Positions 5,636 to 29,829 of a stretch of DNA of 64,000 nt are shown in pieces. Below the pieces are notes generated by a model, which saw only the letters and a program-made list of their open reading frames with translations, had not been told where the DNA came from and searched no databases. Source of the stretch: Crossiella cryophila (GTDB taxonomy: Bacteria > Actinomycetota > Actinomycetes > Mycobacteriales > Pseudonocardiaceae); contig NZ_JACHMH010000001.1 of the NCBI RefSeq assembly GCF_014204915.1, forward strand, positions 4,117,501 to 4,181,500, written 5' to 3'. The position numbers and the translations under genes are program-made. Numbering within the stretch: the stretch's first letter is position 1; each line of letters starts with the position of its first letter.

Positions 5636-5638
5636 GAC

Positions 5639-7180: not shown

Positions 7181-7181
7181 C

Positions 7182-9224
7182 TCAGTCAGCTCCCTCGGCC
7201 AGGTACACCGCGTCCAGCACCCGAACCCCGCGCGGCAGCACCGCCACCGGATTGAGATCCACCTGCCCACCCCACCCCGAAACCAGCGAACTCACCCGAA
7301 CCACAAGGTCAACCAGGGCATCCACATCCACCGCGGCCCGCCCCCGAACCCCGTACAGCAAGGCGGATCCCCGCAACTCCCCGACCATCCGCCGCACCTC
7401 GCCGACATCCACCGGCAACGGCGCCAGCACCACGTCATCCAGCACCTCGGCGAGAATCCCGCCCAGTCCCAACGCCAGCATCGGCCCACAGGGCCCAGGA
7501 GCCACCCCGACCAGCACCTCCACCGCGCCAGTCACGAACTCCTCGACCAGCACCGCCCCACCAAGGCCGGCCAGCCGTTCGTAAACCCCAGCCGCGGCAA
7601 CAGGATCGACATCCAGCTCAACCCCACCGGCCTCGGTCTTGTGCACCAACCCGGGCACCACGGCCTTGAACACGGCTCGCCCGCCCACTTCGCCGACTGC
7701 CGCGACGGCGTCCTCAGCCGAGTCGACCACCCGCCCGACCGGCACCGGAATCCCGTTCTCGCGCAGCAATTCCTTGAAGTCAGCCTCGCTGATCCCACGG
7801 GCAGGGGCCGCAATCCCACCTGCCGTGCCTGCCGTGCCCGGCACCGCCGCCACCCGAGCCCCGGCCCGCACCGCGGCCGCCGCCACCAGCACCGCCCGTC
7901 CGGGCGTCGAATACACCGGCACCCCACCGGCCCGCAAAACCGCCCCCGCCCCCGGCGCCAAATGCTCCGCCCCGGTCCGCGCGACCAGCACCGCCTTCCC
8001 CGACTCCCGCCGCACCCGTGCCAACGCCTCCGCGATCCCGGCCACATCCGACCCGGTCAGCACGCAGAAACAGGCCAGCACCACATCCACCGCCGGATCC
8101 GCCGCCACCACGTCCAGGCACCGCCGGAACAACTCCGGCCGCGCCATCACCGCCGCCGTGACATCCACCGGATTCTCCACCGACCCGTACGCCGGCACGA
8201 CCTCCGCCAGCGCCGCCCGCGTCCCCGCCGCCAACTCCGCCAACCGCAAACCGTGCTGCGCCAACGCATCCGCGGCCAGAATCCCGGACCCACCCGAGGT
8301 GGTCACCACCGCGACCCGGTCCCCACCCGGCCGCGTCCCGGCCGCGAACGCCGCACCGACATCGAGGAGTTCGTCCACATCGGACACTCGCACGATCCCG
8401 TACCGCCGCAGCACCGCGTCGGTCACCCGGTCGTCGGTGGCCAGCGCCCCGGTGTGCGAGGCGACCGCCCGCGCGCCCGCCGCCGACCGCCCGGCCTTGA
8501 CCAGCGCCACCGGTTTGCCCGCCGCGGCCAACCGCCGCAACGACTGGACATCGGCCAGCGACTCCACGTACCCCAGCAACCCGGTGCATCCGGGCTCCTC
8601 GGCCAGCGTCGCCAGCACCTCCAGTGCCGTCACCTCGGCTTCGTTGCCGGTGCTCACCGCCCAGCCCAGGCCCAGCCCGCGCTCGAACGCCAGGCTCACC
8701 GCCCCGAACCCCAGCGCCCCGCTCTGACTCACCAGCGCCAGCGACCCCGGCACCAGCCGGGTCGAGGCCGCCTCGAACAGCGGGCTGAACGAGGTCACCT
8801 GCCCGCTCGCCACCCCCACCGACCCGATGCAGTTGGGCCCCAGCACCCGCAGTCCGCCCGCTTTCGCCTGGGCCACCAGGGCTTCCTGCCGCAGTGCGCC
8901 CTCGGCGCCGGTCTCGGCGAACCCGGAGGAGCACACGATCGCCGCCCGCACCCCGGCCGCCACGCAGTCCTCGATCGCCGCGGGCACCCGGTCCGCCGCC
9001 ACCATGATCATCGCCAGGTCCACCGGCCCGGGACACGCCGCCACCGTCGGATAGGCGGGCAGCCCGAACACCTTCTCGTTCTTGGGATGCACCGGCAGGA
9101 CGCGCCCCTGGTACCCGTACCGCAGCAGGAACTCCACCGGCCGCCCGCCGAGCGCGCCGGGCCGTTCGGTCGCGCCGATCACGGCCACCGATCGAGCCGA
9201 CCACAACGCGGCCAGGGCGCGCAT
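7182..9224 (-). CDS. ADP-forming acyl-CoA synthetase (acetate-CoA ligase family), 680 aa
   Basis: Fused-type NDP-forming acyl-CoA synthetase. It has an N-terminal CoA-binding Rossmann domain (SVAVIGATERPGALGG), two succinyl-CoA-ligase-like flavodoxin domains (SQSGALGFGAVS; SHTGALATDD, which holds the candidate phospho-His) and a C-terminal ATP-grasp domain (DFKELLRENGIPVP to LNPVAVLPRG). Such enzymes interconvert acyl-CoA plus ADP/Pi and acid plus ATP. The ATG overlaps the monooxygenase stop (TGATG) and the next ligase starts 1 nt after this stop, so the genes are translationally coupled. It could conserve energy from, or load CoA onto, a dicarboxylic product of ring cleavage; that role is inference. 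Confidence 0.85.
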   Translation of the reverse strand: MRALAALWSARSVAVIGATERPGALGGRPVEFLLRYGYQGRVLPVHPKNEKVFGLPAYPTVAACPGPVDLAMIMVAADRVPAAIEDCVAAGVRAAIVCSSGFAETGAEGALRQEALVAQAKAGGLRVLGPNCIGSVGVASGQVTSFSPLFEAASTRLVPGSLALVSQSGALGFGAVSLAFERGLGLGWAVSTGNEAEVTALEVLATLAEEPGCTGLLGYVESLADVQSLRRLAAAGKPVALVKAGRSAAGARAVASHTGALATDDRVTDAVLRRYGIVRVSDVDELLDVGAAFAAGTRPGGDRVAVVTTSGGSGILAADALAQHGLRLAELAAGTRAALAEVVPAYGSVENPVDVTAAVMARPELFRRCLDVVAADPAVDVVLACFCVLTGSDVAGIAEALARVRRESGKAVLVARTGAEHLAPGAGAVLRAGGVPVYSTPGRAVLVAAAAVRAGARVAAVPGTAGTAGGIAAPARGISEADFKELLRENGIPVPVGRVVDSAEDAVAAVGEVGGRAVFKAVVPGLVHKTEAGGVELDVDPVAAAGVYERLAGLGGAVLVEEFVTGAVEVLVGVAPGPCGPMLALGLGGILAEVLDDVVLAPLPVDVGEVRRMVGELRGSALLYGVRGRAAVDVDALVDLVVRVSSLVSGWGGQVDLNPVAVLPRGVRVLDAVYLAEGAD

Positions 9225-11578
9225 CAGGTGCCGTCCGGAGTCCAGCGCGCGTGCCGGGTGGCCACTTCGCCCTCCCGGACCAGGTCCAGCCGTGGTCGTG
9301 GCCCGTCGGTGCGCCCGGTCTGCGGCCGCCGCCGCCCGGCCCGGAACTGTGCCGGCCAGTCCGCGGCAGGGCCTGCGTAATCCTGTTCCGCTGCCGCGTG
9401 CAGTGTCCATTGTGGATCGTAGAGGTGGGTGCGGCCCAGTGCGCACAGGTCGGCCCGGCCGGCCAGCAGGATCGAGTTGACGTCGTCGGCGGAGGAGATG
9501 GCCCCGACCGCGATCACCGCGATGCCGTGCCTGCGCCCGACCTCGTTGCGGATCCGGTCGGCGAAGGGGGTCTGGAAGCTGCGTCCGTACGCGGGTTGTT
9601 CGGTGGAGACGACCTGCCCGGTGGACACGTCGATCCCGGCCGCGCCGTGCCGGGCGAAGGCGTCCGCGATGGCCAGTGCCTCCTCGATGTCCACCCCGCC
9701 GTCGGCCCAGTCGGTGGCCGAGATGCGCACCGTCATCGGCCGCTCCACCGGCCAGGCCGCGCGCACCGCGTCGAAGACCTCCAGTGGGTAGCGCAACCGG
9801 TTCGTCAGGCTGCCGCCGTAGGAGTCGGTGCGCTGGTTGGTCAGCGGCGAGAGGAAGGAGGACAGCAGGTAGCCGTGCGCGCAGTGCAGTTCCAGCACGT
9901 CGAACCCGGCCCGCGCGGCCGAGCGGGCGGCGTCGGCGAACTGCTCCCTGATCAGCATCATTTCTGCCCGGTCCAGCTCCCTGGGCACCTGGCTGTCCGG
10001 GGTGTAGCGCAGTGGCGAGGGCCCGCACACCGGCCAGTTCCCGGCGGGCAGCGGCTGGTCCATGCCGTCCCACATCAACCGGGTCGACCCCTTGCGCCCC
10101 GAGTGTCCGATTTGGACACCGATCCGGGCAGAGGTGTTGCCGTGCACGAAGTCCACCACCCGCCGCCATCCGTCCTCGTGCTCGGGCCGGTACAGCCCGG
10201 CACAGCCGGGGGTGATCCGCCCGGAGGCGGACACGCAGACCATCTCGGTCATCACCAGTCCGGCCCCGCCGAGTGCCTTGCCGCCCAGGTGCACCAGGTG
10301 GAAGTCGTCCGGGGTGCCGTCGGTGGCGGAGTAGGTGTCCATGGGGGAGACCACGATCCGGTTCTTCAGCTCCAGCTCGCCGAGCCGATAGGGCTGGAAC
10401 ATCGGCGGCCGGACCTCGCCGTCGCCGGCGAACCAGGAGTCGATCCCGGCCACGAACTCCGGATCGCGCAGCCGCAGGTTGTCGTAGGTGACCCGGCGGC
10501 TGCGGGTGAGGATGTTGAAGGCGAACTGCTCGGGCGCCTGATGGGCGTAACCGCCCAGGTTCTCGAACCACTCCAGGCTGGCCTGCGCCGCGCGCTGGGT
10601 GGACAGCACGACCGGCCGCCGCTCGGTCTCGTAGGCGGCCAGTGCGGCGTCCACTGTGGACTCCTCGTGCAGGCAGGCGGCCAGCGCGAGGGCGTCCTCC
10701 ATGGCGAGTTTGGTGCCGGAGCCGATGGAGAAGTGCGCGGTGTGCGCGGCGTCGCCGAGCAGCACGATGTTGCCGTGCCGCCAGGTCTGGTTGCGCACGG
10801 TGCCGAAGGTGACCCAGCGCGAGTTGTTCGCGTACAGCTCATGCCCGTCGAGGACCTCGGGGAACAGCTCGCGCAGCATCGCGATCGAGCCCTCGTCGCT
10901 CTCACCCGGCGCGAGGTCGTCCCGGTGGTGCCGGGCGAACCCGGCCCGCTGCCACACGTCCTCGTGCATCTCCACGATGAACGTGCTGCCCTTGGCGTCG
11001 TAGGGATAGCCGTGGATCTGCATCACGCCGTGCGGGGTGTCCTTGATGTGGAACAGGAACGCGGGGAACACCAGGTCGGTGCCCAGCCACATGTACCGGC
11101 ACCGCCGAGATTCCACGCTCGGCCGGAACACCTCGGCGTACCGGGCGCGCACCGCGGAGTTGACCCCGTCCGCGGCCACCACCAGATCGTGCGTGGCGGC
11201 CAGTTCGGCGACATCCGGCGCGGGCGTGGACAGTCGCACCCGCACCCCGACCTCGGCGCAGCGTTCGTGCAGCACCTGCAACAGCCGGCGGCGGCTCATC
11301 GCGGCGAACCCGTGCCCGCCGGAGGTGATCACCCGGCCGCGGTAGTGCACGTCGATGTCGTCCCAGCGCGCGAACTCCCGCTGCATGGCCTGGTGGATCA
11401 CCGGATCGGCGTGCTCGATGCCACCGAGGGTCTCATCGGAGAACACCACGCCGAAGCCGAAGGTGTCATCGGCCGCGTTGCGCTCCCACACGGTGATCTC
11501 GTGTCCGGGACCGAGCTGACGCGCCAGCGCGGCGAAGTAGAGCCCGCCTGGCCCGCCACCGACAACCGCGATTCGCAC
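9224..11578 (-). CDS. Anthraniloyl-CoA monooxygenase/reductase-type fusion flavoprotein, 784 aa
   Basis: Two flavoenzyme domains in one chain. Residues 1 to about 380 form a class A FAD monooxygenase (dinucleotide motif VVGGGPGGLY at 5-14; second FAD motif LLGDAAHTAHFSIGSG). From about residue 390 on there is an old-yellow-enzyme TIM barrel (MFQPYRLGELELKNRIVVSPM, HSGRKGS, HCAHGYLLSSFLSP). This architecture is that of 2-aminobenzoyl-CoA monooxygenase/reductase of Azoarcus evansii, which hydroxylates and then reduces the CoA-bound ring. Stand-alone salicylyl-CoA 5-hydroxylases lack the reductase half. The GTG start at 11578 is set by a TACCCT -10 box 6 nt upstream; the in-frame TTG at 11614 lies in the operator. 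It is the first gene of a four-gene minus-strand operon. Confidence 0.88.
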   Translation of the reverse strand: MRIAVVGGGPGGLYFAALARQLGPGHEITVWERNAADDTFGFGVVFSDETLGGIEHADPVIHQAMQREFARWDDIDVHYRGRVITSGGHGFAAMSRRRLLQVLHERCAEVGVRVRLSTPAPDVAELAATHDLVVAADGVNSAVRARYAEVFRPSVESRRCRYMWLGTDLVFPAFLFHIKDTPHGVMQIHGYPYDAKGSTFIVEMHEDVWQRAGFARHHRDDLAPGESDEGSIAMLRELFPEVLDGHELYANNSRWVTFGTVRNQTWRHGNIVLLGDAAHTAHFSIGSGTKLAMEDALALAACLHEESTVDAALAAYETERRPVVLSTQRAAQASLEWFENLGGYAHQAPEQFAFNILTRSRRVTYDNLRLRDPEFVAGIDSWFAGDGEVRPPMFQPYRLGELELKNRIVVSPMDTYSATDGTPDDFHLVHLGGKALGGAGLVMTEMVCVSASGRITPGCAGLYRPEHEDGWRRVVDFVHGNTSARIGVQIGHSGRKGSTRLMWDGMDQPLPAGNWPVCGPSPLRYTPDSQVPRELDRAEMMLIREQFADAARSAARAGFDVLELHCAHGYLLSSFLSPLTNQRTDSYGGSLTNRLRYPLEVFDAVRAAWPVERPMTVRISATDWADGGVDIEEALAIADAFARHGAAGIDVSTGQVVSTEQPAYGRSFQTPFADRIRNEVGRRHGIAVIAVGAISSADDVNSILLAGRADLCALGRTHLYDPQWTLHAAAEQDYAGPAADWPAQFRAGRRRPQTGRTDGPRPRLDLVREGEVATRHARWTPDGT

Positions 11579-11584: not shown

Positions 11585-11614
11585 AGGGTATGCTGCAATC
11601 CTGACGACCGTCAA
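11585..11614 (-). promoter_or_regulatory. Promoter and operator of the monooxygenase operon
   Basis: On the minus strand, -35 TTGACG (11614-11609), an 18-nt spacer, -10 TACCCT (11590-11585) and 6 nt lead to the GTG at 11578. The dyad TGACGACCGTCA (11602-11613 on the plus strand) covers the -35 box. The same dyad occurs at 15091 and 18245, so it is probably the binding site of a shared regulator that would block the -35. Confidence 0.7.
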
Positions 11615-11643
11615 CAGAACGAAATGCCAGACCGGAGGTCGGG

Positions 11644-12405
11644 ATGCGCTTCGAGGGTCGCACCGCAGTGGTCACCGGCGGCACCGGCGGCCTGGGCCGC
11701 GCGGTCTGCGCGGGCTTCGCCGCCGAGGGCGCCGCGGTAGCGGTACTGGACGTCGCGGGCGCCGAGGCCTTCGCCGAGACCCTGACCACCGCGGGCGCGG
11801 TCGCCGCGGGCTACACCGTCGACGTACGCGACCCAGCCCAGGTCACCGAAGTGATGTCCACCATCCACCGCGACCTGGGCGGCCCCCACATCCTGGTAGC
11901 CCTGGCCGGCGGCTCCCTGGGAACCCCAAAAGACCTCCCCGACATCGAACCGGAACACCTGGACCTGGTAGTGGACGTGAACCTCAAAGGCACCTTCTAC
12001 TGCTGCCAGGCAGCCCTGCCGTACCTGTCCGCCGCGGGCGAGGGCGCCATCGTCACCACATCGTCGATCGGCGGCCGCCAACCCTCCCCGGTCACCGGCG
12101 TGCCCTACGCGGCGAGCAAGGCGGCCCTGGTCGGCCTGACCAAGCGACTGGCGAAGGAGGTCGGCCCGGACGGCGTGCGCGTCAACGCGATCGCCCCGGG
12201 GCTGTTCCTCACCGATCGATTGCAGGGCATGTTCGACGGCCTGAGCCAGACCGAGCGCGACGAGGTCCTCAACGCGATCCCACTGCGCCGCATGCCGGAG
12301 CTGAGGGAGGCGGTCGACCCGATCCTGTTCCTGTGCTCGGCGGAGGCGTCGTACATCACCGGGGTGGTCCTGGACGTCAACGGCGGCCGCTTCATGCCCC
12401 TCTGA
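11644..12405 (+). CDS. SDR-family oxidoreductase, 253 aa
   Basis: Classical short-chain dehydrogenase with the NAD(P) motif TGGTGGLG (about 10-17), the NAG-equivalent region around VALAGGS, a catalytic Ser in TSSIGG and YAASK. GGAGG precedes the ATG by 5 nt. It diverges from the anthraniloyl-CoA monooxygenase operon and shares its intergenic operator. In this pathway it could oxidise or reduce the ring hydroxyl/oxo group or a hydroxyacyl-CoA; which one cannot be told from sequence. Confidence 0.85.
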   Translation: MRFEGRTAVVTGGTGGLGRAVCAGFAAEGAAVAVLDVAGAEAFAETLTTAGAVAAGYTVDVRDPAQVTEVMSTIHRDLGGPHILVALAGGSLGTPKDLPDIEPEHLDLVVDVNLKGTFYCCQAALPYLSAAGEGAIVTTSSIGGRQPSPVTGVPYAASKAALVGLTKRLAKEVGPDGVRVNAIAPGLFLTDRLQGMFDGLSQTERDEVLNAIPLRRMPELREAVDPILFLCSAEASYITGVVLDVNGGRFMPL

Positions 12406-13005
12406 CGCCCCACTCCGTCGGGGAGGCTCGCGTCCCCGCCCGACTCGCGTCCCCGCCCGACACACGGCCCCGTCGGACACGCGGCTTCGCCCGACTCGCG
12501 CTCCTGCCCGACACGCGGTCTCGCCCGACTCGCGCTCCCGCCCGGCACGCGGCCTCGCCTGCCTCGGGCCTCGCCCGATGCGTCCCGCCCGGCTTCTGCG
12601 GCCCTCGCCCGGTTGCCGCTCTCGCCCGGCTTCTGCCGCCCTCGCCCGATTCCCGCCCTGTTTGGCTTCCGCTGCCACCCTTGCGTCGGGTTGGTGCCCT
12701 CGCCCCGGGTCTCGCCTCCCTGCCCGGCTCGCAGCCCCGGACGTTTCCCGGAACCCCCGCCTGGCTCGCTGCCTCGGCCGTTTCCCGGAACCCCCGCCTG
12801 GCTCGCTGCCTCGGCCGTTTCCCGGAACCCCCGCCTGGCTCGCTGCCTCGGCCGTTTCCCGGAACCCTCGCTCGGCTCGCAACCCCGTCGGGCTCCTGCG
12901 TCCCCGCAGGGCTTCCGTGGCCCCGCCCGGCGCCCGCCGCCCTGCTGCGGATCGGTGTCCCCGGGATGGCAATGCCCCCGAACAACTCGTGCCCCCGGGA
13001 CTACC
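12406..13005. other. Gene-free 600-bp stretch with pyrimidine-rich degenerate repeats
   Basis: No credible gene. The first part (about 12415-12660) is a drifted array of short units around CCCGACTCGCG; the second part holds a regular 37-bp tandem array. The plus strand is extremely C-rich. The open frames crossing it on either strand encode only Arg/Gly/Pro-rich repeats and are judged non-coding. Confidence 0.6.
12724..12871. repeat. 37-bp tandem repeat, about four copies
   Basis: Units begin at 12724 (degenerate), 12761, 12798 and 12835. The core reads CTGGCTCGCTGCCTCGGCCG followed by TTTCCCGGAACCCCCGC. Copies 2 and 3 are identical and the outer copies have diverged, which points to recent slippage or unequal exchange. 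Each unit contains the short dyad TTCCCGGAA. Confidence 0.85.
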
Positions 13006-13407
13006 TCACCTCTCGGCGGGGGCCGCCGTCCTCGGGTGGGTGCGCGCGATCGGCCAGCGGTGCAGTGCCGCGGGCAGCTCGAAGCCGTGCGGCTGCTCGG
13101 GGAAGTCGTGCACGGCGATCACCGCGGACACCGGGATCGTGCCGTAGACGTGCGGGAACCACGGCGCGGACGGGTTGCCCGGATCGCTGGAGGCTCGCTC
13201 CCACACCAGTTCCGCGTCCAGCAGGTCCGGGTCGATGACCAGCAGCACCAGGTCGTCCCGGCCGCGGAAGAGGCGGTTCGCCGGGAGGTGGACCAGGCCG
13301 AAGTCGCTGCAGTGCACGAAGCCCTCGGCGGCATAGCCAGCGGGTTCGTGCCGTCCGGACTCCTGGGCCGCGGCCCAGTCCGCGTGCGAGCAGATGTGCA
13401 GGATCAC
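13006..13407 (-). CDS. DUF952 domain protein, 133 aa
   Basis: A small soluble protein with the DUF952 pattern: ILHICSHADWAAA at the N-terminus, EGFVHCSDF, and VWERA/APWFPHVYG towards the C-terminus. Its GTG overlaps the stop of the 2-aminobenzoate-CoA ligase (GTGA), so it is translationally coupled to it. No biochemical role is established for the family. Its coupling to the ligase may be incidental. Confidence 0.8.
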   Translation of the reverse strand: MILHICSHADWAAAQESGRHEPAGYAAEGFVHCSDFGLVHLPANRLFRGRDDLVLLVIDPDLLDAELVWERASSDPGNPSAPWFPHVYGTIPVSAVIAVHDFPEQPHGFELPAALHRWPIARTHPRTAAPAER

Positions 13408-15041
13408 CCGCCGATGGTCCCAGACTCCGTCGCGGCGCGTTCGCGCAGTCGGAATCGTTGCAGTTTGCCGGTGGTGGTGCGGGGCAGCTCGGGCAGGAAC
13501 TCGATCACCCGCGGGTACTTGTACGGCGCGATCACGCTCTTCACGAAGTCCTGCAGTTCGGTCACCTTGGCCGCGTCGCCGGTGACGCCAGGGGTGAGCA
13601 CTACGTAGGCGTGCACCACCATGCCGCGCTGCTCGTCCGGCGCGCCGACCACCCCGCATTCGACCACCTCGGCGTGGCTGAGCAGGGCGTTCTCCACTTC
13701 CGGGCCTGCGATGTTGTAGCCGGAGGAGATGATCATGTCGTCGGTGCGGGCCTGGTACCAGAAGTAGCCGTCGGCATCGCGCAGGTAGGCGTCGCCGGTC
13801 AGGTTCCAGCCGTCCTGGACGTAGCTGAGCTGCCGCTCGTCGTCCAGGTAGCGGCAGCCGGTCGGGCCGCGCACCGCGAGTCGGCCGACCACGCCGTCCG
13901 GCGCGGGTTTCCCGTGCTCGTCCAGGATTTCCGCCCGGAACCCGGGGATCGGACGGCCGGTGGCGCCGGGACGGATGTCGTCATCGGCGGCGGAGATGAA
14001 GATGTGCAGCAACTCGGTCGCACCGATGCCCTCGATGATCCGCAACCCGGTCGTCCGCTCGGCCTCGTGCCACACCGTGCTCGGCAACGCCTCCCCGGCC
14101 GACACCGCCCGCCGCAACCCGCGTAATCGATCAGCCAGCCCGGCCGCCAGCATCGCCCGGTACGCCGTCGGCGCGGTGAACAGCACGGTCACCCCGTGCT
14201 CCCGCACCGCGTCGGCCAGCTCGGCCGGCGTGGCCCGCTCCAGCAACAGCGTCGCCGCGCCCACGTGCAGCGGGAACACCACCAGCCCGCCGAGGCCGAA
14301 GGTGAAGCCCAGCGGGGGAGTGCCGGTGAAGATGTCCCGCGCATCCGGCCGCAGCACGTGCCGGGCGAAGGTGTCGGAGTTGGCCAGCACATCCCGGTGG
14401 AAGTGCAGGGTCGCCTTGGGGCGCCCGGTGGTGCCGGAGGTGAACGCCAGCAACGCCACGTCGTCGGCCGCGGTGTCCACCGGCGCGAACTCGGCCGGTT
14501 TCGCCGCCGCGCGCACCGTCAGGTCCGCCGGGTCGGCACCGCCGTAGCCGATCACCGGCAGATCCACGGCCGCCAGTTCGGCCAGGAACCGGTTGTCGCA
14601 CAGCGCGATCACCGGTTTCGCGATCTCGGTCAGCGTGCACAGTTCACCCGAGCGCAGCAACGGCATGGTGGTGACCGCGACCCCGCCCGCCCGCAGCACG
14701 CCGAACCAGCAGGCCACCAGCCACGGGTTGTTCGGCCCGCGCAGCAGCACCCGGTTGCCCGGCACCAGCCCGCAGTCCTCCACCAGCACCCGCGCGACCT
14801 GGTTCGCCCGGTCCCGCAGCTGCCCGTAGGTCCAGGCCGGACCGGTGGGGCTGAGCAGGCACGGCCGGTCCGCGCCGTGCCGGGCGATGGTGTCCTCCAG
14901 CAGGGTGACCGCGCAGTTCAGCCGGTCCGGGTAGATCAGTTCGGGCAGGCTGAACTCCAGTTCCGGCCACTGCTCGCGCGGCGGCAGGTGGTCCCGGCAG
15001 AACGTGTCGACGTGTGCTGAGCGGGACAGATCCACGAGCAC
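13404..15041 (-). CDS. 2-aminobenzoate-CoA ligase-like AMP-forming ligase, 545 aa
   Basis: ANL-family ligase with P-loop FTSGTTGRPKATLHF, the signature GIGATELLHIF, DGWNLTGDAY, the RTDDMIISSGYNIAG hinge and TTTGKLQRFRL with the catalytic Lys. The N-terminal AHVDTFCRDHLPP and YPDRLNC segments are characteristic of the 2-aminobenzoate-CoA ligase/benzoate-CoA ligase group. Predicted reaction: anthranilate + ATP + CoA to anthraniloyl-CoA, feeding the fused monooxygenase-reductase. The gene diverges from the PaaX regulator and shares its operator region. Salicylate or benzoate as substrate cannot be excluded by sequence, but kynureninase nearby favours anthranilate. Confidence 0.82.
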   Translation of the reverse strand: MLVDLSRSAHVDTFCRDHLPPREQWPELEFSLPELIYPDRLNCAVTLLEDTIARHGADRPCLLSPTGPAWTYGQLRDRANQVARVLVEDCGLVPGNRVLLRGPNNPWLVACWFGVLRAGGVAVTTMPLLRSGELCTLTEIAKPVIALCDNRFLAELAAVDLPVIGYGGADPADLTVRAAAKPAEFAPVDTAADDVALLAFTSGTTGRPKATLHFHRDVLANSDTFARHVLRPDARDIFTGTPPLGFTFGLGGLVVFPLHVGAATLLLERATPAELADAVREHGVTVLFTAPTAYRAMLAAGLADRLRGLRRAVSAGEALPSTVWHEAERTTGLRIIEGIGATELLHIFISAADDDIRPGATGRPIPGFRAEILDEHGKPAPDGVVGRLAVRGPTGCRYLDDERQLSYVQDGWNLTGDAYLRDADGYFWYQARTDDMIISSGYNIAGPEVENALLSHAEVVECGVVGAPDEQRGMVVHAYVVLTPGVTGDAAKVTELQDFVKSVIAPYKYPRVIEFLPELPRTTTGKLQRFRLRERAATESGTIGG

Positions 15042-15073
15042 GCACCTCGTCTCGGCGTCGGTGAGCTGCCCGG

Positions 15074-15140
15074 CCAGTATTCACCGTTCATGACGACAGT
15101 CAATAGGCCGACATACGCATCGACGCGATATCGTTTGCCG
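15074..15140. promoter_or_regulatory. Divergent promoters and operator between ligase and paaX-like gene
   Basis: The element TGACGACAGTCA (15091-15102) matches the dyads at 11602 and 18245 at 11 of 12 positions. Reading left, TTGACT (15103-15098) is followed 18 nt later by TACTGG, or 16 nt later by AATACT, as the ligase promoter. Reading right, TATCGT (15129-15134) stands 6 nt before the GTG of the PaaX gene, giving a leaderless transcript. Confidence 0.6.
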
Positions 15141-16001
15141 GTGACCACCCTGGTTGACCTGTCCGAAGTGGACGGGGGAGCGGCGGACGCCCAGTCCGCG
15201 CAACCCCGCCAGCTCATCGTCACCGTCTACGGCCTCTACGCCCGCGAGGTCGGCGGCTGGCTGTCGGTGGCCGCCCTGATCCGCCTGCTGGGCGAACTGG
15301 GCGTGGACGAACCGGCGGTCCGGTCCTCCATCTCCCGGCTCAAGCGCCGCGGCATCCTGGACGCCTCCCGGGTGGGCGGCGCGGCCGGGTACGCCCTGTC
15401 CGAGCAGGCCAGACTCATCCTGCGCGAGGGCGATCACCGCATCTTCGAGCGCCCGAGGGCCACCGTGGCCGACGGTTGGGTGCTGGCGGTCTTCTCCGTC
15501 CCCGAGTCCGAGCGCCAGAAGCGGCACACCCTGCGCTCCCAGCTCACCAGACTCGGCTTCGGCAACACCGCCCCCGGCGTGTGGATCGCCCCGGCACACC
15601 TGCGCGCCGAGACCGCCGAGGTCCTGTCCCGCCTGGACCTGTCCGCCTACGTCGACCTGTTCCGCGCCGACCACCTGGGCTTCGCCGAGCTGACCGACAA
15701 GGTCGCCACCTGGTGGGACCTGGCCGCCCTGCGCGCGCTGTACACGGAGTTCCTCACCGCGCACCGCCCACTGCTGGCCCGCTGGCGTCGCCGCCGCACG
15801 GTGCAGCCCGCCGAGGCATTCGCCGACTACGTCCGTCTGCTCACGGCCTGGCGCCGCCTGCCCTACCTGGACCCGGGTCTGCCCGCCGAACTGCTGCCGG
15901 TGGACTGGCCCGGCGCCGAAGCCGCCGAGTTGTTCACCGCCCTGCAGGACAAGCTCGCCCCGGCCGCGCACGACCACGCCGAGTCCCGCATCACCTCCTG
16001 A
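15141..16001 (+). CDS. PaaX-family transcriptional regulator, 286 aa
   Basis: PaaX-type protein: an N-terminal winged helix (RQLIVTVYGLYAREVGGWLSVAALIRLLGELGVDEPAVRSSISRLKRRGIL region), a middle domain (GDHRIFERP, WVLAVFSVPESERQKRHTLRSQL) and the PaaX C-terminal domain. PaaX of E. coli represses phenylacetate genes and is released by phenylacetyl-CoA. By analogy this member would sense an aryl-CoA such as anthraniloyl-CoA. GTG 15141 is chosen over ATG 15090, which would put the operator inside the coding sequence. It is the best candidate to bind the three shared dyads, including one at its own promoter. Confidence 0.88.
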   Translation: MTTLVDLSEVDGGAADAQSAQPRQLIVTVYGLYAREVGGWLSVAALIRLLGELGVDEPAVRSSISRLKRRGILDASRVGGAAGYALSEQARLILREGDHRIFERPRATVADGWVLAVFSVPESERQKRHTLRSQLTRLGFGNTAPGVWIAPAHLRAETAEVLSRLDLSAYVDLFRADHLGFAELTDKVATWWDLAALRALYTEFLTAHRPLLARWRRRRTVQPAEAFADYVRLLTAWRRLPYLDPGLPAELLPVDWPGAEAAELFTALQDKLAPAAHDHAESRITS

Positions 16002-16287
16002 CTCCGTAGACCTGGTTGAGATCCAGTACGTGGTGACCCAGCACCGCGCCCGCGGGCACGTCCAGCACCACCACGAGAAACACGTTCCGCGGACCGGGGA
16101 ACAAGACGTGCCGGAAACCCGGCTCCGGCATGTCCCGCACCGCCTCGGGCGTGGTCGCGAATCCACGCCGTTCGGCGCGCGGGACCGACTTCAGGTACGC
16201 CCGGATCACCGCGGGCACCTCGGCGGCGACCAGCACCGGGCGGGCCTGGATGGTCGCGCGGAACTCCGCCTCGGTGAGCCGCCGCAT
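15991..16287 (-). CDS. Hypothetical protein, 98 aa
   Basis: A small soluble protein (RLTEAEFRA, PAVIRAYLKSVPRAERRGF, HHVLDLNQVYG). I recognise no family. Its start overlaps the stop of the DinB gene by one base (TGATG), so the two are probably translated together. Its 3' end overlaps the end of the convergent PaaX gene by 11 bp. Confidence 0.65.
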   Translation of the reverse strand: MRRLTEAEFRATIQARPVLVAAEVPAVIRAYLKSVPRAERRGFATTPEAVRDMPEPGFRHVLFPGPRNVFLVVVLDVPAGAVLGHHVLDLNQVYGVRR

Positions 16288-16829
16288 CAGTGGCCGGTGA
16301 CCCCGTCGGTCCGCTCACGTAAGAGATCCGCGTGCCCGCAGTGCCGCGCGTACTCCGCGATCATGTGCACCAGCACCCGGCGTAAGGCCAGCGGCCGCCC
16401 GGTGGCCAGGTGGACCCCGGTGTCCTCCAGTGCGTGCGCCGCCAGGATCTCCTGAGATTTCGCCACCTCGGCCCGCCACACCGCGAACGCCTCGTCGACG
16501 TCCCCGTCCAGGCTGTCGAAATCCTGGCTGGGGTCCTCGTCGGAGTAGTACAGGTGCGGCACGTCCCGCTGGGCGAACTGCATCTGGAACCACCACCGCT
16601 CCGCCCCGGACAGGTGCCGCAGGATCCCGTGCAGGGTCAGGCTCGACGGTGGAATCTGGGCGTGGGACAGGGCTTCCGGGCGAACGCCCCGGCATTTCAG
16701 TTCGAAGGTGGTCCGGTGCCAGTCCAGGTAGGAGGTCAGGATCTCGCGTTCGGAGCCGTCCAGGGGCAAGGGCTGCCGGGTGTCCGCCGGCCATTTCTCC
16801 GCAAGGTGTGCGGGCTGGGTGAGTGCCAT
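16287..16829 (-). CDS. DinB/DUF664-family protein, 180 aa
   Basis: Four-helix DinB-like fold of the DUF664 group: LDWHRTTFELKCRGV, LTLHGILRHLSGAERWWF and VLVHMIAEYARHCGHADLLRE provide the three histidines expected to bind a metal. Many actinobacterial relatives are mycothiol-dependent transferases or uncharacterised. It is coupled with the 98-aa protein downstream. No link to the aromatic pathway is visible. Confidence 0.8.
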   Translation of the reverse strand: MALTQPAHLAEKWPADTRQPLPLDGSEREILTSYLDWHRTTFELKCRGVRPEALSHAQIPPSSLTLHGILRHLSGAERWWFQMQFAQRDVPHLYYSDEDPSQDFDSLDGDVDEAFAVWRAEVAKSQEILAAHALEDTGVHLATGRPLALRRVLVHMIAEYARHCGHADLLRERTDGVTGH

Positions 16830-17070
16830 GCGAGGAGCGTTCCACGGCCCACCGACACCGGTCGCCTGGCGAACTTTCTTTCGCTACGCGAACACGTTGC
16901 GGAGGTGTGCGCAGACTGGCACGGCAGGTTCGCCACCGACCACCTCGACCGTCTGGAGAAGCCCGGCCATGCAGCTCACCCTACCCGCCGCCACCCGCCC
17001 GATCCCTTATCGCGCAAGGGAAGGGTCCGCGCGCACGGCAGCGCGACGCCCGCTGTGCGTTCGCCTGTCC

Positions 17071-17469
17071 TCAGTCCAGCACCGCGGTTCCCTGAACCTC
17101 CACCAGCGCCTCGATGTCCCACAGCCGGGCGATCCCGATCGCGGCCATCGCCGGGTAGGACTCGCCGGCCAGCTCGCGCCAGACCTTGCCGATCTCCTTG
17201 CCGCGCGCCTTGTAGTCCTCGACGTCGGTCAGGTAGATGGTCAGCGTGGCGAGCTGATCCGCGCGCCCGCCCGAGGCCCGCAACGCGGTCAGCAGATTGC
17301 CCAGCGCCTGGCGGAACTGCGCCACCACATCCGCGCCCACGATGTGGCCGTCCGCGTCCAGCGCGGTCTGCCCGGCCAGGTACACCGTCCGCCCCGCCCC
17401 GGCGACCACGGCGTGGCTGAAGCCCGAGGGCCTGGCCAGCTCCGGTGGATTGACCCGTTCCAGACTCAC
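17071..17469 (-). CDS. RidA-family enamine/imine deaminase, 132 aa
   Basis: RidA/YjgF/UK114 fold: AVVAGAGRTVYLAGQTALDADGHIVG, QFRQALGNLLTAL, TIYLTDV, and ARLWDIEALVEVQGTAV, whose pattern resembles the usual RidA C-terminal signature. RidA proteins hydrolyse reactive enamines/imines to ketones. The GTG overlaps the SDR stop (GTGA), so the gene is coupled to the SDR and driven from the shared operator at 18245. The fused monooxygenase-reductase should yield a 2-amino-cyclohexene-carboxyl-CoA, which is an enamine. A pathway-specific RidA that removes this nitrogen is therefore an attractive inference. The nominal active-site Arg common in RidA is not placed with certainty. Confidence 0.82.
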   Translation of the reverse strand: MSLERVNPPELARPSGFSHAVVAGAGRTVYLAGQTALDADGHIVGADVVAQFRQALGNLLTALRASGGRADQLATLTIYLTDVEDYKARGKEIGKVWRELAGESYPAMAAIGIARLWDIEALVEVQGTAVLD

Positions 17470-18221
17470 GACTGCACCGTCCCGCCGTCGATGTTCAACC
17501 CCTGTCCGGTGAACGCCGGACTCGCCACGCAGAAGGAGACCGCGTCCGCGACCTCCTCCACCGAGATCATCCGCCCGATGGGTTGTTTCGCGGCCAGCAT
17601 GGCCCGGATCTCCGCCCGGGGCCTGCCGGTGCGCTCGGCGACCGCGTCCACGGTCCGCTCGGTCATCGGCGTGTCCACGAACGCCGGGCAGATCGCGTTC
17701 GCGGTCACCCCGGTCCGCGCCAGCTCGGCCGCTGCCGCCCGGACCAGGCCCAGCACCCCGTGCTTGGCCGCGGTGTACGCGGCGATGTGCGCCTCGCCCT
17801 GCTTCGCCGCGGTGCTCGCGACCACGATCAGCCGTCCCCAGCCCGCCGCGCGCATGGCCGGGATGGCCCGGCGCAGGCACTGGAACGGCGCGGTGAGGTT
17901 GAGGGCAAGAGCGGCCGACCACTCCTCGTCGGTGATCCGGTGCAGTGGGGTGGCGGTGCCCGAGCCCGCGTTGGCGACCAGGATCTCCACCGGCGACCAG
18001 GCGGCCTCCACCGCGTCGAACAGGCCGGCCACCGCGCCCGGTTCGGTGAGATCGGCCGGCAGCACCAGGGACTCCCCGGGCAGGGTGGCCGCGACCGCCC
18101 GCAGTTCGGCCTCGTTACGCGCGGTGAGCGCCACCCGGTGGCCCTCGGTGGACAACCGGCGGGCCACGGCCGCGCCGATTCCCCGGCCTGCGCCGGTGAC
18201 CAGGCTGGTGCGTGCCATCAC
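17466..18221 (-). CDS. SDR-family oxidoreductase, 251 aa
   Basis: Short-chain dehydrogenase with TGAGRGIG (cofactor), VANAGSG, the catalytic Ser in VASTAAK and YTAAKHG. The GTG at 18221 fits a leaderless transcript (-10 CAAGCT, 6 nt upstream); ATG 18218 follows directly and is a possible alternative. The gene is the first of a two-gene operon with RidA and diverges from thiolase. A 3-hydroxyacyl-CoA or ring-alcohol dehydrogenase role in anthraniloyl-CoA breakdown is inferred from position. Confidence 0.85.
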   Translation of the reverse strand: MMARTSLVTGAGRGIGAAVARRLSTEGHRVALTARNEAELRAVAATLPGESLVLPADLTEPGAVAGLFDAVEAAWSPVEILVANAGSGTATPLHRITDEEWSAALALNLTAPFQCLRRAIPAMRAAGWGRLIVVASTAAKQGEAHIAAYTAAKHGVLGLVRAAAAELARTGVTANAICPAFVDTPMTERTVDAVAERTGRPRAEIRAMLAAKQPIGRMISVEEVADAVSFCVASPAFTGQGLNIDGGTVQS

Positions 18222-18268
18222 CTGCGAAGCTTGTCAAACGTTGGTGACGACCGTCAAGATGACGACAT
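18222..18268. promoter_or_regulatory. Divergent promoters and operator between SDR and thiolase
   Basis: Dyad TGACGACCGTCA at 18245-18256, identical to that at 11602. Leftward promoter: -35 TTGACG (18257-18252), 18-nt spacer, -10 CAAGCT (18233-18228), 6 nt to GTG 18221. Rightward: TTGTCA (18231-18236), 18-nt spacer, CAAGAT (18255-18260), 8 nt to ATG 18269. The leftward arrangement copies that of the monooxygenase promoter. Confidence 0.65.
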
Positions 18269-19447
18269 ATGGACGCCTATCTGCTCGATGCCGTGCGCAC
18301 CCCGTTCGGCCGCCATCGTGGCGGGCTGGCCGGGATCCGGGTGGACGACCTGGCCGCCCTGCCGATCACCGAGCTGACCCGCCGCAACCCCGGCCTCGAC
18401 CCGGCCCTGGTGGACGAGGTCATCTACGGCAACACCAATGGCGCTGGGGAGGAGAACCGCAATATCGGCCGGATGGCGGCGCTGCTCGCCGGGCTGCCGG
18501 TGACCGTGCCCGGGGTGACCGTCAACCGGCTGTGCGCCTCCGGTGGCGAGGCGGTCATCCAGGCCGCCCGGATGCTCGCGGTGGGGGCGGGACGGATCGC
18601 CATCGCCGGTGGCGTGGAGGGCATGTCCCGCGCGCCGTTCGTGGTGCCGCGCCCGGACGAGGTGCTGCCGCAGCGGATGGAGATGGTCTCCACCGCGCTC
18701 GGCTGGCGGCTGGTCAACCCGAAGTTCCCGGCCGAGTGGACCGCGAGCCTGGGCGCCTGCGCCGAACAGGTCGCCGCGGGCCTGGGCATCGGCCGGGCGG
18801 CCCAGGACGAGTGGGCGCTGCGCTCGCACCGGCTGGCGAGCGCGGCCTGGGACAACGGCTCGCACGACTGGGTCATGCCGGTCGAGCAGGTCGGCAGGGA
18901 CGAGTCGCTGCGCCCGGACACCTCGGCTGCCGCGTTGGCCCGCCTGCGCCCGGCGTTCAGCCCGGACGGGACCGTCACCGCGGGGAACTCCTCCCCGCTC
19001 TCCGACGGCGCACTGGCCGCACTGCTGAGCACCAGGGCGGCAGCTGCCGAGCTGGGCCTGGAACCGTTGGCGCGCATCAGGGACAGCACGACCGCGGCCA
19101 CCGACCCGCACCGCTTCGCGGTCGCCCCGGTGCCCGCGATCCTCACCCTGCTGCACCGCAACGGCCTCTCCCACCGGGACATCGCCCGCTGGGAGATCAA
19201 CGAGGCCTTCGCCGCGATGGTGCTGTCCACCCTGGACCAGCTCACCGCCGAGGGCTGCAAGCTGGACACCGACCTGGTCAACCCGGATGGTGGCGCCATC
19301 GCCCTCGGGCACCCCCTGGGCGCCTCCATGCCCAGGGCGATCGTGGACTGCGCCCGCGGACTGCGGCGGCGCGGTGGCGGGCTGGGTGTGGTCGCGGCGT
19401 GCATCGGGGTCGGGCAGGGCATGGCCGTGCTCGTCCAGACCGACTGA
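18269..19447 (+). CDS. Acetyl-CoA acyltransferase (3-oxoadipyl-CoA thiolase-like), 392 aa
   Basis: Thiolase with the nucleophile Cys89 (NRLCASGG), NEAFA and the final Cys in ACIGVGQG. The GEENRNIGRMAALLAGLPVTVPG stretch is close to PcaF/PaaJ-type 3-oxoadipyl-CoA thiolases. The usual GHPLGASGAR segment reads GHPLGASMPR, a change next to the catalytic His loop. Predicted to be the final cleavage giving acetyl-CoA plus a shorter acyl-CoA. It leads a two-gene plus-strand operon with the crotonase, under the shared operator. Confidence 0.85.
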   Translation: MDAYLLDAVRTPFGRHRGGLAGIRVDDLAALPITELTRRNPGLDPALVDEVIYGNTNGAGEENRNIGRMAALLAGLPVTVPGVTVNRLCASGGEAVIQAARMLAVGAGRIAIAGGVEGMSRAPFVVPRPDEVLPQRMEMVSTALGWRLVNPKFPAEWTASLGACAEQVAAGLGIGRAAQDEWALRSHRLASAAWDNGSHDWVMPVEQVGRDESLRPDTSAAALARLRPAFSPDGTVTAGNSSPLSDGALAALLSTRAAAAELGLEPLARIRDSTTAATDPHRFAVAPVPAILTLLHRNGLSHRDIARWEINEAFAAMVLSTLDQLTAEGCKLDTDLVNPDGGAIALGHPLGASMPRAIVDCARGLRRRGGGLGVVAACIGVGQGMAVLVQTD

Positions 19448-19463: not shown

Positions 19464-20261
19464 GTGCGGATCGAGGACTTCACCGACATCGGCTACACCG
19501 TCGAGGACGACAACCACGCGGTGATCACCATCAACCGGCCGGAGCGGATGAACTCCTTCCGCGGCCGCACCGTGGATGAGCTGATCGCGGCGTTCAAACA
19601 CGCCTGGGCGGACAAACGGGTGGCCGCGATCATCCTCACCGGCGCCGGTGAGCGGGCCTTCTGCGCCGGCGGCGACGTCAAGGAGCGGGCCGAGACCGGT
19701 GGCTACGGCGAGACCGAATGGGGCACTTTCGAGATCGAACGGCTGCACCGGCTCATCCGGGACGTGCCCAAGCCGGTGATCGCCGCGGTCAACGGCGTCG
19801 CGGTGGGCGGCGGTCATGTGCTGCACGTGCTGTGCGACCTGACCGTGGCCGCCGAGCACGCCCGCTTCGGCCAGTCCGGCCCCAGGGTCGGCTCCTTCGA
19901 CGCCGGGTTCGGCTCCGCCTACCTGGCCCGGGTGGTGGGGGAGAAGCGGGCACGGCAGATCTGGTTCCTGCTCGACCTGTTCGACGCGCACACCGCCGAA
20001 CGCTGGAACCTGGTCAACCAGGTCGTCCCGGCCGAGGAACTGCTCGACACCGCCCGCGCCTGGGCACGCAAGATCGGCTCCTACTCGCCGACCGCGCTGC
20101 GCTTCCTCAAACACTCCTTCAACGCCGACACCGACCACATCGGCGGGATCTCGCACCTGGCCTTCGACGGCCTGGAGCTGTTCACCGAGACGCCGGAGGG
20201 GAAGGAGGGCGCGGCCGCGTTCGCCGAGAAGCGGGATCCGGACTTCCGCCAGTACCGCTAG
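19464..20261 (+). CDS. Crotonase of the BadI/MenB type, probable ring-opening hydrolase, 265 aa
   Basis: Enoyl-CoA hydratase fold: oxyanion-hole motifs AFCAGGDV and NGVAVGGGHVL, then GPRVGSFDAGFGSAYLARVVGEK. The last block, INRPERMNSFRG near the start and the tail EKRDPDFRQY are typical of 1,4-dihydroxy-2-naphthoyl-CoA synthase (MenB) and of 2-ketocyclohexanecarboxyl-CoA hydrolase (BadI), not of ordinary hydratases. No menaquinone genes surround it. In this operon a BadI-like hydrolytic C-C cleavage of an alicyclic beta-keto acyl-CoA is the best fit. GTG 19464 has GAGGAGA upstream. Confidence 0.82.
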   Translation: MRIEDFTDIGYTVEDDNHAVITINRPERMNSFRGRTVDELIAAFKHAWADKRVAAIILTGAGERAFCAGGDVKERAETGGYGETEWGTFEIERLHRLIRDVPKPVIAAVNGVAVGGGHVLHVLCDLTVAAEHARFGQSGPRVGSFDAGFGSAYLARVVGEKRARQIWFLLDLFDAHTAERWNLVNQVVPAEELLDTARAWARKIGSYSPTALRFLKHSFNADTDHIGGISHLAFDGLELFTETPEGKEGAAAFAEKRDPDFRQYR

Positions 20262-20291: not shown

Positions 20292-21221
20292 CTAGGCGGA
20301 GGAGGTCTTGGCCAGCTTCGCGGCCAGCCCGTCCAGGAGCACTTCCACGCCCAGCTCGAACAGCGCCTCGCCGGTCAGGTCCCGGTAGGCGGGCGCCACC
20401 CGCCGCAGGTGCGGGAAGTCCGCGGGCAGGCCGGTCGGGCCCGCAGTGGAGGCGGCCAGGCCCGCGGGCGGGCCGGTCGGCTCTGCGGCTGGGCCGGTGG
20501 GGCCCGCGGGTGAGGCGTTCCGCTCCGCGGGAGCGGCGGTCGGGTCGGCGGGCGGGCCGCTCGGTTCTGCGGCTGGGCCGGTGGAGTCCGCGGGTGAGGC
20601 GCTCTGTTCCGCGGACGCGGTGGGCGGGTCGGCGGGGGCGGTGGGCGGGTCTGCGGGTGAGCCGCTCTGCCCCGCGTGTGTGGCGGTCGGGTTGGCGGGC
20701 GGGCCGGTTGGTTCCGTGGCTGGGCCGGTGAGGCCCGTGGGGGAGCCGATCAGCTCCGCCCGTGGGGCCGCGCCGGCTCGACGGTCGTCCTCGGCGGCGG
20801 AGGCGAGCACGTGGTCGGCCAGTAGCACCGAGATCGCCGCGGTGTCCGTGGGGGTGAAGCCCGCGGTCAGCAGGATCCGGGTGGTGGTCTCGATGTGGCC
20901 CAGGCGGTGTGGGCCGCGCGGTGGGCGTAGCCGCAGCAACTGCGCGGCGTCCCGGTGGGTGCGCAGCAGGGTGCGGAACTGGCGTAGGCCGGTGGCCAGT
21001 TGGTCGCGCCAGGGCAGGGTGTCGTCGATGTCGAAGGCCTCGGCGCAGATCGCCTCGGCGACCAGGTCCAGTAGTTCGTCCTTGTCGCGGACGTGCCAGT
21101 ACAGGGTCGCGGAGCGCACGCCCAGTTCGGCGGCCAGTTTGCGCGTGCTCAGCGCGGCCAGGCCGTGTTCGTCCAGCAGCCGTACCGCGGCCGCGGTGAT
21201 CCGAGGGAGGTCGAGCGCCAC
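20292..21221 (-). CDS. TetR-class repressor with expanded Pro/Ala-rich insert, 309 aa
   Basis: The N-terminal HTH (STRKLAAELGVRSATLYWHVRDKDELLDLVAEA) and the following helices match the true TetR (tetracycline repressor) class rather than generic AcrR types. The protein is about 90-100 residues longer than usual. Roughly residues 155-265 are a low-complexity Gly/Pro/Ala/Thr insert built on a 28-residue (84-bp) repeat (TGPAAEPSGPPADPTAAP core). The normal C-terminal helix (FPHLRRVAPAYRDLTGEALFELGVEVLLDGLAAKL) resumes after it. GTG 21221 follows TAGAGT by 7 nt. It diverges from a membrane protein, with two tetO-like sites between them, so autorepression and repression of the neighbour are likely. 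Confidence 0.85.
   Translation of the reverse strand: MALDLPRITAAAVRLLDEHGLAALSTRKLAAELGVRSATLYWHVRDKDELLDLVAEAICAEAFDIDDTLPWRDQLATGLRQFRTLLRTHRDAAQLLRLRPPRGPHRLGHIETTTRILLTAGFTPTDTAAISVLLADHVLASAAEDDRRAGAAPRAELIGSPTGLTGPATEPTGPPANPTATHAGQSGSPADPPTAPADPPTASAEQSASPADSTGPAAEPSGPPADPTAAPAERNASPAGPTGPAAEPTGPPAGLAASTAGPTGLPADFPHLRRVAPAYRDLTGEALFELGVEVLLDGLAAKLAKTSSA
20444..20745. repeat. 84-bp coding tandem repeat inside the tetR-like gene
   Basis: Units share TCTGCGGCTGGGCCGGTGG (copies begin at 20482 and 20566), with a degenerate third unit to the right. In-frame expansion gives the Pro/Ala-rich insert of the TetR-class protein. Confidence 0.75.
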
Positions 21222-21231
21222 AATCGAGACT

Positions 21232-21265
21232 CTATCAGTGATAGATTTTTCCCTATCACTGATAG
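21232..21265. promoter_or_regulatory. Two tetO-like operators
   Basis: CTATCAGTGATAG (21232-21244) and CTATCACTGATAG (21253-21265) are 13-bp dyads 21 bp apart, matching the core of the classical tet operator. The first overlaps the TAGAGT -10 box of the tetR-like gene; the second abuts the ribosome binding site of the divergent membrane protein gene. Confidence 0.85.
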
Positions 21266-21277
21266 AGGGGGTTCGTG

Positions 21278-21973
21278 ATGGAGAGAACGGCACTGCGGGT
21301 GGCCGCCTGCTGCGCGGTCATCGGCTCGGTGGCCTACCTGGTGCTCACCCTGGTGCACGGGTTCCTGCCCGGCACCGCGCACGAGCTGGCCCGGCACGTG
21401 CTCGCGCGGGACTGGCGGGCCATCCACCTGGGCACGATCCTGGCCCTGCTGCTGTGGGTGTTCGCCTTCACCGCGGTGGGCTCGGTGATCGTCACCGGGC
21501 CTGGCGCGCTGCTGGTCCGGCTGGCCCGGCCGCTGCTGGTGATCGGCTTCACCGTGTTCGCCATCGACTTCGCACTGGACGGGTTCGGCTTCGCCCAGCT
21601 CGCCGAGGCGGGGGCGCACGCCGAGCTGGACCTGATGTTCCGGGCCGTGGTCGGCTCCACGACCATGCTGGTCCAGGTGCTGTTCGGGCTGGCCTTCGCG
21701 GTGTGGGCGCTGGTGCTGCTGCGGTCCCGCCGCGCGCCGACGTGGCTGTGCGTGCTGGGGCTGGTCGCGGCGACCGGGTGGTTTGTCGGCGGCTGCCTGA
21801 TGTTCCTGCGGGTTCCCGGCATCGGGTTCCCGGTGGTGGCGCCGCTGGCCGGGGTGGTGCAGCTCTGGGTGCTGGGGCTGGGGATCTCGTGGTGGCGTCA
21901 GTCCGTGGGTTCGGTCACCGGGCGCCAGTCCACCGGGGTGGACAGGACCATCGCGCTGGAGGTCTCACCGTAG
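21278..21973 (+). CDS. Six-helix membrane protein under TetR-class control, 231 aa
   Basis: Six or so hydrophobic segments (for example VAACCAVIGSVAYLVLTLVHGF, TILALLLWVFAFTAVGSVIV, LLVIGFTVFAIDFALDGFG, WLCVLGLVAATGWFVGGCL, VAPLAGVVQLWVLGLGISWW). It is not a 12/14-helix tetracycline efflux pump and I recognise no family. ATG 21278 is preferred (GAGGGGG 7 nt upstream) over GTG 21275. The last 76 bp overlap the 3' end of the convergent Lrp/AsnC gene. The tetO-like sites suggest induction by a small molecule. Confidence 0.75.
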   Translation: MERTALRVAACCAVIGSVAYLVLTLVHGFLPGTAHELARHVLARDWRAIHLGTILALLLWVFAFTAVGSVIVTGPGALLVRLARPLLVIGFTVFAIDFALDGFGFAQLAEAGAHAELDLMFRAVVGSTTMLVQVLFGLAFAVWALVLLRSRRAPTWLCVLGLVAATGWFVGGCLMFLRVPGIGFPVVAPLAGVVQLWVLGLGISWWRQSVGSVTGRQSTGVDRTIALEVSP

Positions 21974-29776: not shown

Positions 29777-29794
29777 GGCCGCTCAACCGTTCGT

Positions 29795-29829
29795 CGACGG
29801 AGCCGCGCGCCCAGCGTGCGGCTCCGTCG
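29795..29829 (+). terminator. Hairpin after the coiled-coil gene
   Basis: Perfect 12-bp stem CGACGGAGCCGC / GCGGCTCCGTCG with an 11-nt loop, 18 bp after the stop. GC-rich terminator-like structure without a U-tract. Confidence 0.7.

Follow-up and report, generated by a model that had tools for sequence, protein, structure and literature searches.

The closest described system is that of MeqR2, a PaaX-type repressor from the quinaldine degrader Arthrobacter sp. Rue61a that is encoded on plasmid pAL1/pARUE113 and was reportedly characterized by Niewerth et al. in J. Bacteriol. in 2013. MeqR2 is reported to bind TGACGNNCGTcA cooperatively and as a dimer at four promoters, its own included, to respond specifically to anthraniloyl-coenzyme A (anthraniloyl-CoA) and to control the lower (anthranilate) pathway. 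The palindrome TGACGNNCGTCA, the reported MeqR2 operator, was followed here in a stretch of 64,000 nucleotides (nt) from Crossiella cryophila (contig NZ_JACHMH010000001.1, positions 4,117,501 to 4,181,500), referred to as the window. Three sites of this type are present in a gene cluster containing a PaaX-family gene (paaX) at 15141. Very likely, this gene encodes a MeqR2-type repressor for which the three sites serve as operators, with derepression by anthraniloyl-CoA.

According to PMC3534580, two plasmid-borne PaaX-related regulators are involved in the control of quinaldine degradation, and an anthranilate-CoA ligase activity was measured for ARUE_113p00220. Judged by gene order, this is the pAL1 ligase homologous to that of the window. 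In Escherichia coli K-12, PaaX is the phenylacetyl-CoA-responsive repressor of the paa genes (PMC9493321).

The original prediction placed the motif TTGAC[G/T]GTCGTCA at 11602, 15091 and 18245, in divergent intergenic regions of one pathway. All three positions were recovered, and the gene map put each of them in a divergent gap of a single pathway cluster (Table 1). At one mismatch or fewer, three TGACGACCGTCA-like copies were counted against a shuffle mean of 0.66 (4 of 100 shuffles reached three), and the window contained no further copy at this threshold. The genome scan proposed with the prediction gave three exact copies of the 13-mer TTGACNGTCGTCA in 10,058,141 bases (one contig), all of them in the cluster, for an expectation under a base-composition model of 0.36 genome-wide and 0.0002 in 6.7 kb. 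This confinement to the cluster was counted in favour of MeqR2-type operators. Relaxed forms were not enriched. At two mismatches or fewer, the motif had seven matches in the window versus 4.1 expected; at one mismatch or fewer, the 13-mer had 20 matches in the genome versus 27 for the reversed control, and TGACGNNCGTCA was found at 201 places versus 440 for the control. The bare palindrome was found exactly at six places in the genome versus 8.7 expected. The signal thus lies in the exact 13-mer and in its positions. Other regulon members elsewhere in the genome were rejected on the same count, two of the six exact places being in the cluster. Among the four others, L165 is inside a gene with a PAPS-reductase domain; with one neighbour scanned each, L167 gave no family and L169 a zinc-peptidase family. 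When the full ligase promoter was searched for across the phylum, this genome alone among 396 had it.

The leftward promoters at 11.6 and 18.2 kb were described beforehand as TTGACG, 18 nt, −10, 6 nt and GTG, and the sequence agrees. The ligase promoter at 15.1 kb, on which the prediction was silent, has the same −35/−10 layout. The monooxygenase/reductase gene has its GTG start at 11578, 6 nt past the −10, which predicts a leaderless mRNA; leaderless mRNAs are predicted for several genes of the cluster. Operator 2 ends 26 nt ahead of the predicted paaX −10. In orthologues with a site, the TA of the −10 was found at exactly 18 nt for 31 of the 33 T-preceded ligase sites and for 13 of the 15 monooxygenase promoters having the site at one mismatch or fewer. 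When nine spacings of TTGAC-N-TA (14–22) were tested, only one occurrence was found besides those at 18. The SDR2 (short-chain dehydrogenase 2) orthologue promoters with a site had no TA, but 11 of the 13 distinct ones carried CANNNT at this spacing. Beside orthologues of this PaaX gene in other actinobacterial families, the operator again overlaps the −35 and the −10 follows at a distance of exactly 18 nt; on this ground the operator site is very probably functional. The idea of a single operator placed on the −35 of the pathway promoters was supported by comparative genomics.

A PaaX orthologue (E <= 1e-60) was detected in 69 of 200 family genomes, own genus included. When the 200 genomes were scanned with the pattern only, without anchoring on paaX, 15 of the 18 listed copies of TTGACTGTCGTCA were within 100 bp of a PaaX orthologue; among the matches listed, none in which the free position was C or A was within 10 kb of one. 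In four other Crossiella genomes, 2 of 2, 3 of 3, 3 of 3 and 3 of 4 exact copies were in the cluster. In 65 family loci outside the genus (816,840 bases), TGACGNNCGTCA occurred exactly 19 times versus once for the reversed control; it ranked first among 60 permuted palindromes, although the runner-up reached 18 copies.

Regions of 250 bp upstream of paaX and of the pathway genes were then counted in 99 loci (98 plus the window). Locus L025 (same record as L103), the distant homologues L051, L054 and L055 and the short loci L057–L065 and L083–L097 were left out, as were genes whose best match was below 50% identity, did not reach the first 60 residues or had fewer than 200 bases upstream. Duplicates between the named and unnamed collections are possible. 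Sites with one mismatch or fewer were found upstream of 35 of 64 ligase genes (against 5 for the best among 59 control palindromes), 34 of 98 paaX genes (13), 16 of 33 SDR2 genes (8), 15 of 81 monooxygenase genes (15), 10 of 11 SDR1 genes (1), 7 of 7 thiolase genes (1) and 2 of 9 hydratase genes (5). In the same order and with the best control in brackets, the exact sites numbered 0/64 (1), 2/98 (1), 9/33 (4), 5/81 (0), 4/11 (0), 4/7 (0) and 2/9 (0). The monooxygenase signal was carried by the exact sites and by the sense-oriented form TTGACNGTCGT (19/81; reversed control, 0). Records of Nocardioidaceae, Sporichthyaceae, Ornithinimicrobium, Terrabacter, Rugosimonospora, Longispora and Pseudonocardia are among the named loci with sites.

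One half of the ligase site differs from the other operators. Its inner base was changed at 32 of 35 ligase sites (mostly to TTGACT), versus 0 of 15 monooxygenase and 1 of 16 SDR2 sites, the promoters that keep TTGACG (Fisher p 6e-14, uncorrected for relatedness). With such counts, this single-base difference looks unlike noise. In this comparison, the site nearest to the gene start was taken, which in L132 masked a ligase-type TGACGACAGTCA at 5921. The change was kept where the ligase gene follows paaX head-to-tail with the site ahead of the ligase gene (L104, L106, L107, L113 and L116). The changed base may tune the ligase promoter, or simply serve its −35. That selection has made the operators uneven is a tentative idea, which we hold to be doubtful: with a weaker operator at the ligase, basal sensing would stay on and induction would be graded and ordered, the inducer being made first and consumed later. 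The ligase half-site offers a clean test case for operator strength setting the order of induction.

The first 40 kb of pAL1 were searched in the same way. Exact copies of TGACGNNCGTCA were found before each of the two quinaldine operons and before a paaX gene (Table 1), when 0.1 exact copies and 1.4 copies within one mismatch were expected. Of four further copies with one mismatch, one (22608) falls in the lower-pathway gap and three (3319, 18311 and 19755) were not accounted for. The copy at 19755 (L082) has a superoxide dismutase gene on one side and the first PaaX gene on the other, presumably outside the four promoters that MeqR2 is reported to bind. The pAL1 regulator encoded downstream of the monooxygenase gene is 50% identical to the window PaaX protein over 267 columns; the second pAL1 PaaX regulator has an equal identity of 50%. 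A new specificity and a new type of regulon, as had been proposed, were not borne out: TGACGNNCGTCA is the reported MeqR2 operator, and copies were seen before quinaldine and anthranilate genes of pAL1. By analogy, the cluster is judged to be a MeqR2-type regulon, for which we infer binding and effector.

All three Pfam models (N-terminal, central Cas2-like and C-terminal) matched the window PaaX protein above cut-off. The phenylacetate regulator equivalog TIGR02277 scored 178.3 bits, below its cut-off of 264.55, so the protein does not qualify as PaaX itself, and the neighbours of its gene are of the aminobenzoyl-CoA type. The gene is closest to paaX of Crossiella sp. S99.2 (99%) and SN42 (92%). 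In the helix that we take to be the recognition helix, VRSSISRLKRRG of the window protein resembles VRSSVSRLKKRG of the pAL1 PaaX proteins, with conservative changes only, and is unlike both VRTALFRLNKEG of E. coli PaaX and VRTAVSRTVRQG of a paralogue from the same genome. Comparative genomics and plasmid pAL1 support the PaaX-family repressor that had been proposed as the reader of the sites. The paralogue (41% identity) is encoded by a second PaaX-family gene at C1:152093-152872 (L063, L166), which adjoins an enoyl-CoA hydratase gene. It was rejected as a reader of the sites since no site with one mismatch or fewer was found within 1.5 kb of its gene; the same was observed for its four counterparts in the genus (L061–L065, its own locus included).

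Several observations weigh against a PaaX-type operator at these sites. At one mismatch or fewer, the monooxygenase count did not exceed that of the best control palindrome. The expectation that the motif stands upstream of orthologous clusters held in Crossiella and in other genera and families; it failed in 54 of the 99 loci (window included), which had no site with one mismatch or fewer in the 250 bp ahead of paaX or of any pathway gene. These 54 loci encode look-alike recognition helices. A two-mismatch form (TGACGGTCGTAC or near) was found ahead of the monooxygenase gene in 10 of 10 site-less loci of genus g16, and a two-mismatch form is kept there as well in L098, L101, L103 and L105. 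All 11 Streptomyces loci share a two-mismatch variant (CGACGGTCGTGA in 8, CGACGATCGTGA in 3) about 2.4–2.6 kb upstream of the ligase gene; it presumably stands ahead of an operon ending with paaX. In the remaining site-less loci, no recognizable site was found. Finally, the same palindrome adjoins TetR genes in two other genomes, so the motif alone is no proof of PaaX.

The Streptomyces loci have in common an element of strong conservation, with the core TTTTCGACGGTCGTGAAAA or GATCGT, upstream of the ligase, monooxygenase and paaX genes; in L039, for example, it is about 2.5 kb from the ligase gene. This element resembles a drifted form of the operator.

A TetR-family gene at 20292–21293 is present in the same region and could encode the reader of the sites, PaaX then regulating something else or nothing here. 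Two adjacent copies of TGACGNNCGTCA in the gap separating a TetR gene from a divergent one, in two loci from another family of the same order (L183 and L184), lend this some credit. The nearest site with one mismatch or fewer to the window TetR gene is that at 18245. Of the 98 other loci, which mostly cover 6–8 kb either side of paaX, only three contained a relative of the TetR protein (E <= 1e-15), and these three are all Crossiella, whereas the sites persist beside paaX in other genera. The TetR gene was consequently rejected as the source of the reader, and this explanation is highly improbable. In L183 and L184, the two copies are back to back (1518–1542 in both), and the divergent genes are of the EcsC family and DUF4396. 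This palindrome may thus have readers in a TetR group as well as in the PaaX group. When the full monooxygenase promoter was searched for across the order, 12 of 397 genomes had it; the other 11 loci had no pathway gene and no PaaX of this type within 1.5 kb, and correspond to other uses of the palindrome (two beside TetR genes) or to chance.

That the conserved element is just a strong sigma-70-type promoter, the palindrome being incidental, would agree with the conservation of TTGAC, of the 18-nt spacer and of a TA-type −10. We regard it as extremely improbable: the conserved bases extend well into the spacer (GTCGTCA), where no −35/−10 pair needs them, the exact 13-mer is near-unique in the genome, and the site seems to be placed differently at the thiolase promoter, as presumably also at promoters of pAL1. 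It is unlikely, though less so, that a PaaX-type protein reads the sites in response to another acyl-CoA, such as salicyloyl-CoA or a later intermediate. The NCBIfam name of the hydroxylase/reductase, salicylyl-CoA 5-hydroxylase/oxidoreductase, points that way; the reported response of MeqR2 to anthraniloyl-CoA points the other way, and the RidA-type gene of the cluster would suit an amino-substituted intermediate. Several CoA thioesters arise in the pathway according to PMC3534580, which leaves room for such an effector, but the window ligase shares 60% identity with the pAL1 ligase that, by gene order, is the one whose anthranilate-CoA ligase activity was measured in that same source.

The features of the cluster are collected in Table 1. 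The monooxygenase/reductase protein is 67% identical to its pAL1 homologue. Because of the identity between the ligases, the cluster is assigned, by sequence, to a putative anthraniloyl-CoA (2-aminobenzoyl-CoA) pathway. Close behind the monooxygenase gene, in the leftward direction, come an ADP-forming CoA-synthetase-like gene, an AMP-forming ligase gene and a methylmalonyl-CoA mutase-type gene (4109–9221), and these may be co-transcribed with it. A glycine cleavage P-protein gene is present at 37934–40816, with no connection to the operators seen.

Table 1. Positions of operators, promoters and genes in the window, and of exact operator copies in the first 40 kb of pAL1
Feature	Position	Strand	Description
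Operator 1	11602..11613	.	TGACGACCGTCA (exact TGACGNNCGTCA); gap between monooxygenase/reductase gene (-) and SDR1 (+)
Operator 2	15091..15102	.	TGACGACAGTCA, inner base of one half-site changed; gap between CoA-ligase gene (-) and paaX (+)
Operator 3	18245..18256	.	TGACGACCGTCA; gap between SDR2 (-) and thiolase gene (+)
Monooxygenase/reductase promoter	11585..11614	-	−35 TTGACG 11614–11609, N18, −10 TACCCT 11590–11585
Ligase promoter	15074..15103	-	−35 TTGACT 15103–15098, N18, −10 TACTGG 15079–15074
SDR2 promoter	18228..18257	-	−35 TTGACG 18257–18252, N18, weak −10 CAAGCT 18233–18228, 6 nt, GTG
Predicted paaX −10 and start	15129..15143	+	TATCGT 15129–15134, 6 nt, GTG 15141–15143; probably leaderless
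Possible thiolase promoter	18231..18260	+	TTGTCA-N18-CAAGAT; most of the operator would be within the spacer (similar in orthologues)
paaX	15141..16001	+	PaaX, PaaX_M and PaaX_C domains; proposed repressor
Bifunctional monooxygenase/reductase	9224..11578	-	NF006101, 1226.8 bits versus cut-off 1078; 2-aminobenzoyl-CoA monooxygenase/reductase type
Aryl-CoA ligase	13404..15041	-	60% identity to the pAL1 ligase adjoining the monooxygenase gene there
SDR1, short-chain dehydrogenase	11644..12405	+	
SDR2, short-chain dehydrogenase	17466..18221	-	
RidA-type (Ribonuc_L-PSP)	17071..17454	-	Downstream of SDR2
Thiolase	18269..19447	+	3-oxoadipyl-CoA thiolase-like
Enoyl-CoA hydratase family	19467..20261	+	MenB/BadI-like; putative start
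ADP-forming acyl-CoA synthetase-like	7182..9221	-	Downstream of monooxygenase gene; putative start
Exact TGACGNNCGTCA, pAL1	9727		Ahead of leftward molybdenum-hydroxylase genes
Exact TGACGNNCGTCA, pAL1	10133		Ahead of rightward monooxygenase-meqE-hydrolase genes
Exact TGACGNNCGTCA, pAL1	30318		Ahead of leftward paaX (29264–30130), in the gap to a divergent gene

From these data we infer binding of PaaX to the sites, repression and an inducer, the inducer and the binding mode being carried over from MeqR2. Without substrate, a repressor dimer would occupy TGACGNNCGTCA. At the ligase, monooxygenase/reductase and SDR2 promoters, it would cover the −35 hexamer together with the beginning of the spacer. 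It would sit within the spacer at the thiolase promoter, and on the −35 region or slightly upstream of it at the paaX promoter. RNA polymerase would thereby be excluded from the catabolic units and, perhaps more weakly, from paaX. Basal ligase would then form anthraniloyl(2-aminobenzoyl)-CoA, the likely inducer by analogy with MeqR2, which would bind and release the repressor and open the pathway. If so, a PaaX-type lineage of many actinobacteria has a testable operator, from which anthranilate (2-aminobenzoyl-CoA) regulons can be predicted by sequence, and the MeqR2 type may be a wider arrangement than a speciality of quinaldine plasmids.

The MeqR2 regulon and the Crossiella cluster are alike in several respects. 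The pAL1 sites are where those of MeqR2 are reported to be, and the regulators and the ligases are 50% and 60% identical, respectively. The reported MeqR2-type operator TGACGNNCGTcA is present in Crossiella exactly at 11602 and 18245 and with one change at 15091. Genes of the anthraniloyl-CoA ligase and 2-aminobenzoyl-CoA monooxygenase/reductase types bear sites in Crossiella and may be controlled through them. In contrast to the plasmid regulon, no quinaldine upper-pathway genes were seen in the Crossiella cluster, which includes genes of ring-cleavage and beta-oxidation type; its sites are in three divergent gaps, and the ligase gene and paaX share one asymmetric site. The 2-aminobenzoyl-CoA pathway of Azoarcus evansii has the same type of key enzyme and the same CoA-thioester chemistry, according to PMC3534580. 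The E. coli PaaX sites differ, as had been stated: the operator given in PMC9493321 is TGATTC(N27)GAATCA, and the recognition helix is also another one. No TGACGNNCGTCA with two mismatches or fewer was found in the E. coli paaZ/paaA and paaK/paaX gaps. The two regulators nevertheless belong to one family and, according to PMC9493321, the likeness would extend to promoter repression, an aryl-CoA effector and autoregulation.

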